A stretch of DNA of 64,000 nt, taken from contig CAIUOG010000093.1 in assembly GCA_903900705.1 (NCBI GenBank), forward strand, positions 1 through 64,000. Direction: 5' to 3'. The notes beneath the pieces were generated by a model, which had not been told where the DNA came from, did not search any database, and saw nothing but the letters and a program-made list of their open reading frames with translations. This DNA comes from an uncultured Acidobacteriia bacterium (GTDB lineage: Bacteria; Acidobacteriota; Terriglobia; Bryobacterales; Bryobacteraceae). Positions 50,788-52,450 of the stretch are shown here, piece after piece (position 1 is the stretch's first letter; every line of letters starts with the position of its first letter). A program made the translations under genes and the position numbers.

Positions 50788-50877
50788 GGAGGAATGGCAG
50801 AGCGGTTTAATGCGCCGGTCTTGAAAACCGTTGGAGTCGAAAGGCTCCCGGGGGTTCGAATCCCTCTTCCTCCGCCA
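50788..50877 (+). tRNA. tRNA-Ser (anticodon UGA), CCA encoded
   Basis: A 7-bp acceptor stem pairs GGAGGAA (50788-50794) with TTCCTCC (50867-50873), with discriminator G and an encoded CCA at 50875-50877. The anticodon loop CTTGAAA places TGA at 50822-50824. A long variable arm (TTGGAGTCGAAAGGCTCC) and the T-loop GGTTCGAATCC confirm a class II serine tRNA. Its 3' end is the likely integration target for the segment that follows. Confidence 0.97.
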
Positions 50878-50879
50878 TC
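50862..50879 (+). repeat. Left att-like repeat in the tRNA-Ser 3' end
   Basis: CCCTCTTCCTCCGCCATC covers the end of the T arm, acceptor 3' strand and CCA of tRNA-Ser. It matches 17 of 18 bases with a copy at 52433-52450. Site-specific recombinases of integrative elements often use tRNA 3' ends as attB, leaving such a direct repeat at the far end. Confidence 0.55.
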
Positions 50880-50986: not shown

Positions 50987-51568
50987 TCAATCCTCGATCT
51001 CCACAAGCAGAGCCGAATGATCCGAAGTCTTGCTCTCTCGCTCGTCATGCGAATAGCGGCAATCTCGGATCCGTGACAGCAGCGACGGCGAGGCAAGTGC
51101 ATGGTCGATCCGATATGACTTCCCACTCCGAGGCCATGTATACGTGTATTCGGTACGGTCTGCGTGGAAGTGCCTCCAGGCGTCGGTGAAGCCCTTTCCC
51201 TGAAGCGCCGCAAAGCGATCAACGTCTCCGAAATTCTTCAACGGCCCGTCCGCTGGCCCGATTCCGGTATTGAAATCTCCCACGAAGAGGAATGGATCGG
51301 CGGCTCGTAACGAACCGATTTGAATGAGAGCATCCAGGTGCGCCTTCATCTTTGGTGGCTTCGTTGGCAAATGAACGACTCCGAAGCTGAGGCGGTGCGC
51401 CGGAACGGTGATCTCCAGCCACAGCCCGGAATCGTCCAGCGTGGGAATCCCGGAGATTCGGGTGCTGATGGATGTCTTCGAGAAGACGCACATGGCGTGG
51501 TTGAAGCCATTCGGGGTTGTGCATATCTGATCATTTCCCATGTCCCGGAACGATTGGACTATCGGCAA
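50987..51568 (-). pseudogene. N-terminally truncated endonuclease/exonuclease/phosphatase (EEP) family gene
   Basis: This 193-aa ORF aligns with the C-terminal three quarters of EEP nucleases: LFVGDFNTG (catalytic Asp-x-Asn), SYRIDHALAS (Asp-His) and the terminal KTSDHSALLVEIED (Asp-His). The first strands, with the Asn and the metal-binding Glu (usual WN and QE motifs), are missing. TGA lies immediately before the TTG start in frame, and the two other upstream frames show no matching sequence. Nuclease activity is therefore unlikely. It could still make a regulatory or dead fragment. It lies between the tRNA and an orphan terminator, as expected after a deletion. Confidence 0.7.
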
Positions 51569-51755: not shown

Positions 51756-52235
51756 GTGCAACCGCCGATCCAGATATCGTCCGACCCAAACGTCAACTGG
51801 ATCGTCTTCGGTGCTGCGTTGATCGTTGCTCTTTATTGGCTCCGTGCACTGCGGTTGGCTCGAGAAGGTGCGCAGCTTTTTCTCAGGAATGTCGCGAAGG
51901 GGGTCTTTGTTTTTCTCGCGTGCGCGCTATTGATCTCCGCCGTCTTCCACATTGACCCGAAGCAGTCACAGTTCTGGTCTTTCTTCGTCGCATTTTTTGC
52001 TTGGGTCAGATGGCAATCGCAGAAGCGATCCCGGCATATCTCAGCGAAGACAAAGAAAGCGGTGATCGCGCGAGATTTGAAGGGCGAGCGGTACGACTCA
52101 TCGAAACACCACATAGATCACGTCTGGCCGCACTCGCGAGGCGGCAGCAACACGGAGGACAACCTCCGCGTGATCGAGAAAACAAAGAACCTGAAGAAGG
52201 GCGGTAAGCGGCCCGGCCTTCGGGAGATGTGGTGA
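51756..52235 (+). CDS. Membrane-anchored HNH endonuclease-like protein
   Basis: This 159-aa protein starts at GTG 51756. Hydrophobic helices lie at about 14-32 (WIVFGAALIVALYWLRAL), 47-65 (VAKGVFVFLACALLISAVF) and perhaps 72-85. A basic linker (RWQSQKRSRHISAKTKK) leads to an HNH domain at about 100-150, with HHIDHVWPHSRGGSNTEDNL and ending in TKNLKKG. The core His-Asp-His, GG and Asn residues are present, but the flanking zinc Cys pairs of many HNH enzymes are absent. A nuclease tethered to the inner face of the membrane is unusual. Defence against incoming DNA or DNA processing during transfer is inferred from fold and location only. Confidence 0.72.
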   Translation: MQPPIQISSDPNVNWIVFGAALIVALYWLRALRLAREGAQLFLRNVAKGVFVFLACALLISAVFHIDPKQSQFWSFFVAFFAWVRWQSQKRSRHISAKTKKAVIARDLKGERYDSSKHHIDHVWPHSRGGSNTEDNLRVIEKTKNLKKGGKRPGLREMW

Positions 52236-52385
52236 CTACTTCTTCTTTGCAGCCTTCCGCATGTGCGCCTTCGCGCGCGTGCCGTCCTTCTTGACGCGGC
52301 CGTTGACAGCGGTCTTCTTTTCCGGTTTCGATGAAGCTTTCCCGAGGAGAGCTCCGACGACGAGTGGGATGATCGGAAGAGGCAT
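52236..52385 (-). CDS. 49-aa basic protein with one hydrophobic segment
   Basis: The track start is too early. ATG at 52385 gives MPLPIIPLVVGALLG, a short hydrophobic stretch, followed by a very basic tail (VNGRVKKDGTRAKAHMRKAAKKK). The pattern with KKDGTxxxxHxR resembles small phage- and island-encoded basic proteins, but I do not recognise a named family. Its stop codon abuts that of the HNH gene tail to tail. It lies just inside the right repeat of the candidate island. Confidence 0.55.
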   Translation of the reverse strand: MPLPIIPLVVGALLGKASSKPEKKTAVNGRVKKDGTRAKAHMRKAAKKK

Positions 52386-52432: not shown

Positions 52433-52450
52433 CCCTCTTCCGCCGCCATC
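52433..52450 (+). repeat. Right att-like repeat, imperfect copy of the tRNA-Ser 3' end
   Basis: CCCTCTTCCGCCGCCATC differs at one position (G for T) from the tRNA-Ser 3' end at 50862-50879, in the same orientation. It lies between the 49-aa gene and the S9 peptidase start, outside coding sequence. With the left copy it would define the ends of the candidate micro-island. The pyrimidine-rich composition makes a chance match somewhat easier. Confidence 0.5.

Follow-up and report, generated by a model that had tools for sequence, protein, structure and literature searches.

The locus and its island setting

Within the 64,000-nucleotide stretch of DNA analysed here, hereafter the window, a 159-aa ORF runs without interruption from a GTG start to a TGA stop and encodes a small HNH protein of a soil bacterium (Table 1). 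The ORFs that surround it comprise peptidases, the remnant of a gene of the endonuclease/exonuclease/phosphatase (EEP) family and metabolic genes. A chance ORF is ruled out by the existence of relatives and by the codon substitution pattern, both discussed below; the closest relative, with 58% identity, even shares the start context VQPP.

The gene lies in a low-GC interval of 1.57 kb that directly follows a tRNA-Ser gene and holds three ORFs, namely the EEP remnant, the HNH gene and a 49-aa ORF. GC content drops to a trough of 0.52-0.58 in the region of the HNH gene, against mostly 0.59-0.71 in the flanks. The 18-nt sequence at the 3' end of the tRNA gene, CCCTCTTCCTCCGCCATC, recurs with one mismatch on the far side of the interval, 1571 nt away; in the 6.1-Mb genome these two sites are the only matches to it with at most one mismatch, and when the segment was simulated 3000 times under a first-order Markov model, no such copy arose. 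By these sequence features the segment looks like an integrated island, in the pattern of integration at tRNA 3' ends. The EEP gene inside it is probably a pseudogene: the first 70 profile positions are missing and in-frame stop codons stand immediately upstream. On the contig of the window there is no match to an integrase family, so the island would be either a remnant or a cassette that was mobilised in trans. In same-genus genomes the flanking peptidase genes are not adjacent to a tRNA, and hence there is no syntenic site for an empty-site comparison. At another locus (L009, G021:C428) a different, zinc-type HNH gene is found near the 3' end of a tRNA-Ser with the same terminal sequence, and this tRNA may for that reason be a recurrent insertion site.

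Table 1. Features of the HNH locus, with positions in the window
Feature	Position	Strand	Basis
tRNA-Ser (anticodon TGA), presumed integration target	50788..50877	+	ARAGORN
Direct repeat at the tRNA-Ser 3' end, presumed att	50862..50879	+	repeat search
EEP-family gene remnant, N-terminal part missing	50987..51568	-	PF03372 positions 71-225 of 225
Gene of the membrane-anchored HNH protein	51756..52235	+	open frame; Pfam HNH above cut-off; full-length relative with 58% identity
Predicted TM helix 1 (residues 16-34)	51801..51857	+	Kyte-Doolittle mean 1.83; AlphaFold2 helix 11-34
Predicted TM helix 2 (residues 46-64)	51891..51947	+	Kyte-Doolittle mean 2.41; AlphaFold2 helix 36-64
Predicted TM helix 3 (residues 68-87), weaker	51957..52016	+	AlphaFold2 helix 68-87; relatives' segment 0.9-1.9
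HNH nuclease domain (about residues 93-153)	52032..52214	+	Pfam and PHROG HNH matches
Active-site codons	D121-H122 52116-52121; N136 52161-52163; N145 52188-52190	+	invariant in 8 members
49-aa ORF, short hydrophobic N-terminus, basic C-terminus, possible partner	52236..52385	-	adjoins the HNH stop codon tail-to-tail
Second repeat copy, 17/18 nt, presumed att, far side	52433..52450	+	repeat search; genome-wide uniqueness; simulations

Architecture and predicted topology

The first-pass annotation had read the ORF as two or three hydrophobic helices followed by a basic linker and an HNH core. Each of these parts is present: the first 90 residues hold all the hydrophobic segments, the linker WQSQKRSRHISAKTKK between helices and HNH is basic, and the HNH part passes its Pfam cut-off. 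The number of helices can be narrowed to three on the strength of AlphaFold2 and hydropathy, the third (about residues 68-88) being weaker in the window protein and clearer among relatives, in most of which its counterpart scores 0.9-1.9 on the Kyte-Doolittle (KD) scale. The strongly hydrophobic second segment sets this gene apart within its own genome: when it is compared with three of the four other HNH genes above the cut-off (the fourth, L071, being left out), only the window gene has a segment of KD 2.4, the others peaking at 0.4-1.5.

Structure prediction, which had been proposed as a check on the annotation, gave three long helices followed by an HNH part both for the window protein (mean pLDDT 79) and for a divergent relative, G330 (mean pLDDT 85). 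In the former, a further helix spans residues 97-108 and both HNH strands are called (118-122 and 137-141), the final helix not being called; in the latter, the beta-beta-alpha unit is complete (strands 107-111 and 126-130, helix 131-139). Foldseek placed HNH nucleases at or near the top ranks, yet no match of any kind got to E 0.001, which would be unsurprising for a domain of about 50 residues.

Lys and Arg residues cluster after helix 1 and after helix 3. From this distribution we infer, under the positive-inside rule, an N-out/C-in topology with the nuclease facing the cytoplasm, the side on which injected DNA comes out.

The HNH core

The window protein matches Pfam PF01844 (HNH) over residues 116-140 with 24.6 bits, against a cut-off of 21.4, and the model is matched by all eight aligned family members; the HNH_4 match of the window protein falls slightly under the cut-off, and many phage HNH families in PHROG match it too. 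Invariant in all eight members are R93, G110, D121, H122, G129, G130, D135, N136, N145 and K148, and the residue set of the HNH superfamily is complete, with a catalytic His, a metal-binding Asp, a central Asn and a final His/Asn. This D-H/N/N arrangement is that of Cas9-type HNH domains. Zinc-binding CxxC pairs, common but not universal in the superfamily, are absent, there being no cysteine within the HNH part of any of the eight members. The catalytic residues belong to the best-conserved positions of all, which speaks for an active enzyme.

By sequence profile, the PDB entries that match best, all of them weakly, are HNH domains of Cas9 and the Gme HNH nicking endonuclease (PDB 4h9d). The likeness to the HNH domain of Cas9 and IscB (PF13395, HNH_4) extends to the D-H/N/N site without zinc-binding cysteines and is confined to the HNH domain, RuvC, the bridge helix and the guide-RNA parts being absent; a Cas9 or IscB fragment is rejected by the equivalog scores (22 bits versus 375 for Cas9d, 18.8 versus 175 for IscB) and by the local nature of the similarity. 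The Gme enzyme, which also ranks first by fold for G330 (E 0.03), differs in being soluble, and its weak match covers the HNH core only.

The idea from which we started is thus supported in part. Its core, a probably active HNH nuclease tethered to the membrane, draws support from hydropathy, positive-inside charge, conservation, two structure models and the invariant D-H/N/N site; both the tethering and the intactness of the active site are well supported.

A rare and patchy protein family

The 58%-identity relative is full-length and comes from another genus of the same family (G019, also L002/L018, a Terriglobia MAG). For this pair of genes pN (0.26) lies far below pS (0.80, saturated), pN being 0.34 over the membrane part and 0.17 over the HNH part, a substitution pattern by which the gene is under purifying selection. 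A profile built from these two sequences retrieved more divergent members within the class, namely G236 (a Bryobacteraceae MAG), G098, G330 and G298, besides copies in G313, G135 and G037 that are degenerate or doubtful; scans of viral contigs added two full-length members, L020/L039 and L038. The architecture is retained in the closest relative and in six more divergent members. In full-length members helix 1 is followed by a basic RE(G/A) loop, by helix 2 and a short polar loop, and then by helix 3, the (R/K)xRyI linker and HNH; helix 1 of G236 is short, perhaps owing to a misassigned start. Since relatives keep the architecture and the gene is under purifying selection, the fusion of helices to HNH is a real protein family. 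Rejected as members were the soluble, zinc-type HNH proteins found in the order (L004-L017) as well as HNH matches from phages (L021-L023, L040-L046), whose similarity is confined to the HNH core. At two loci, L003 (1252-1695) and L028 (1309-1692), the HNH part is damaged, with an apparently disrupted frame and a change of DH to DQ, which suggests that the gene is decaying in some genomes.

Relatives are rare and patchy. The gene is present in one of 19 same-genus genomes, a weak match in G009 being a zinc-type HNH protein, and matches occur in 8 of 399 genomes of the class. When a wider profile was applied to a sample of the phylum, the only additions were zinc-type HNH proteins. One of these (L050, G478:C232, 1327-1707) is a separate small HNH protein that has two hydrophobic N-terminal helices as well as zinc cysteines, and its closest viral-contig matches are soluble; it suggests that membrane-fused HNH proteins evolved more than once. 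Neither the window protein nor the phage-contig relative had a tblastn match in 72,556 plasmid records or in 50,697 phage records. The observed spread is a lower bound, as pattern-seeded scans overlook divergent members.

Neighbours of different members have little in common except mobile-element genes. At three loci (G330, G135 and contig C125 of G298) integrase-family genes lie within about 5 kb; with about 1-6 integrase genes per Mb in these genomes, well under one would be expected by chance over all bacterial loci. On viral contig L039 the gene stands beside a terminase small subunit, a head protease and head genes; L038 is viral by IMG/VR assignment. Both come from a viral collection and therefore show that phages are able to carry the gene, not how frequently they do. 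We regard the gene as small and probably mobile. Beside the phage-borne relative, L020 holds two ORFs that are a possible accessory gene cluster: one of 193 aa (1413-1994), which looks like a restriction nuclease by eye and matches nothing in Pfam or PADLOC, and one whose product has a hydrophobic helix at the C-terminus (1903-2478).

Comparison with known membrane-associated nucleases

Two described systems bring a nuclease to the membrane. SNIPE is a membrane-bound GIY-YIG nuclease with a DUF4041 domain that cuts incoming phage DNA, its nuclease domain being cytoplasmic and toxic once untethered (PMC13190303). Zorya II brings the HNH nickase ZorE to the membrane upon infection (PMC11890865; reviewed in PMC12904381). 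The window protein resembles SNIPE as a single protein with an N-terminal, N-out inner-membrane anchor and a C-terminal cytoplasmic nuclease (here predicted from hydropathy and charge), and in the proposed cutting of DNA at entry. It differs in having HNH and three helices in place of GIY-YIG and one helix, and in being a chain of about 150 aa that lacks DUF4041 and any other recognition domain; no relation between the two was detected by sequence. Only HNH families match it, GIY-YIG not being found, and DUF4041, for which 159 aa leave no room, has no Pfam match. With ZorE it shares the trait of an HNH nuclease working at the membrane, but ZorE is soluble and requires the ZorAB motor, whereas the window protein carries anchor and nuclease on one chain; PADLOC returned no Zorya type II match for the window protein, and no ZorAB-like neighbour was noticed. 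Lacking GIY-YIG, DUF4041 and a match to ZorE, the window protein belongs to neither system.

More broadly, PADLOC assigned the protein to no known defence family, and no recognised defence system adjoins the gene; the weak partial PADLOC matches among the neighbours of relatives are not relied upon. Among the open-access papers searched, judged in part by title and abstract, we found none on a membrane-fused HNH nuclease; subscription papers and unannotated entries may hold one.

Possible roles

Computation supports how the protein is built, that it belongs to a family, that its active site is intact, that its gene sits on an island and that the spread is patchy. We favour, tentatively and with somewhat less than even confidence, the reading that a small tRNA-Ser island carries, as its cargo, a mobile HNH nuclease that is anchored in the membrane and cuts DNA entering through the inner membrane. 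We posit that it would sit at this membrane with its nuclease facing the cytoplasm, and that its metal-dependent D-H/N/N site would cut or nick DNA as it emerges, be it a phage genome or a plasmid. Tethering would limit access to the folded chromosome and could in this way discriminate self from non-self; the window protein would amount to a SNIPE-type anchor and a nuclease of the Zorya II type in one short chain. The SNIPE precedent (PMC13190303) makes the cutting of incoming DNA by a tethered nuclease plausible, and a function in anti-phage or anti-plasmid defence is plausible as well; catalytic activity, target DNA and a role in defence or exclusion we likewise infer. The island setting and the patchy distribution fit an entry-cutting nuclease. 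Weighing against it are (i) the lack of a match to PADLOC or other defence families, (ii) the lack of a recognition domain like the DUF4041 of SNIPE, (iii) presence on a phage contig, which is equally consistent with service to the phage, (iv) the weakness of helix 3 in the window protein, and (v) neighbourhoods that share little beyond mobile-element genes. Somewhat doubtful, in our estimate, is that the protein represents an undescribed minimal (about 150 aa) single-protein entry-restriction nuclease, in which a three-helix anchor fused directly to a zinc-free HNH domain would cut whatever DNA comes through the inner membrane and discriminate by location only, borne on a 1.6-kb tRNA-bounded cassette with a small partner.

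That partner would be the 49-aa protein, to which a regulatory or immunity role might be ascribed. Its counterpart in G019 is a 51-aa ORF of about 55% identity, immediately upstream of the HNH gene and encoded on the strand that it uses. Among 61 relatives the ORF occurs in the window genome and G019 only, and among 250 class genomes in the window genome and as one marginal match without an HNH neighbour; the association with HNH is therefore specific to this sub-lineage. Adjacency in the two closest members and almost nowhere else, together with carriage on an island, is what one would expect of a tethered toxin or addiction-like module, in which the HNH protein, once activated, would attack the DNA of the host or some other nucleic acid and the 49-aa protein would hold it in check, stabilising the island or causing abortive infection. 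We nonetheless consider such a module unlikely: the two genes are tail-to-tail here and in tandem in G019, not in the usual single operon, and the small ORF was not found at the more distant family loci examined.

A similarly low probability attaches to a role in the service of phages and satellites, in superinfection exclusion or genome handling, with the protein acting against competing phages or on the element's own DNA at the membrane. Such a role would agree with the two members on viral contigs, one of them amid packaging and head genes, and with the integrases near three others, but the annotated phage records hold no relative, the origin of the viral contigs makes their number uninformative on proportion, and the window copy sits on an island of 1.57 kb without phage genes.

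It is very improbable that we are dealing with an ordinary soluble HNH nuclease whose helices form a soluble core or a dimerisation bundle. The third helix of the window protein is weak, several segments have unfavourable insertion estimates on the scale used, and the structure model by itself does not show whether the bundle is soluble or lies in a membrane; yet segments of membrane-spanning length with mean KD values of 1.8-2.8 recur in nearly all full-length members, with positively charged predicted inner loops, and their length and hydrophobicity favour placement in the membrane. Least probable of all is an EndA-like role in taking up or processing DNA from the environment, as EndA-type competence nucleases, which are likewise membrane-anchored and of the beta-beta-alpha-metal type, face outside, serve DNA uptake and belong to a different sequence family, whereas the nuclease here is predicted to be cytoplasmic and 18 of 19 same-genus genomes lack the gene, which would not be expected of a core competence function.

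Implications

Membrane location as a basis of nuclease specificity has been demonstrated only lately, for SNIPE and for Zorya recruiting nucleases. If the entry-cutting reading is true, this protein family would be a much smaller solution to the same end, made of three helices and an HNH core only, and would offer a direct test of whether tethering without a recognition domain suffices to separate incoming DNA from the chromosome. The phage biology of Acidobacteriota is, to our knowledge, scarcely explored, and the protein would provide a defence candidate in this phylum.
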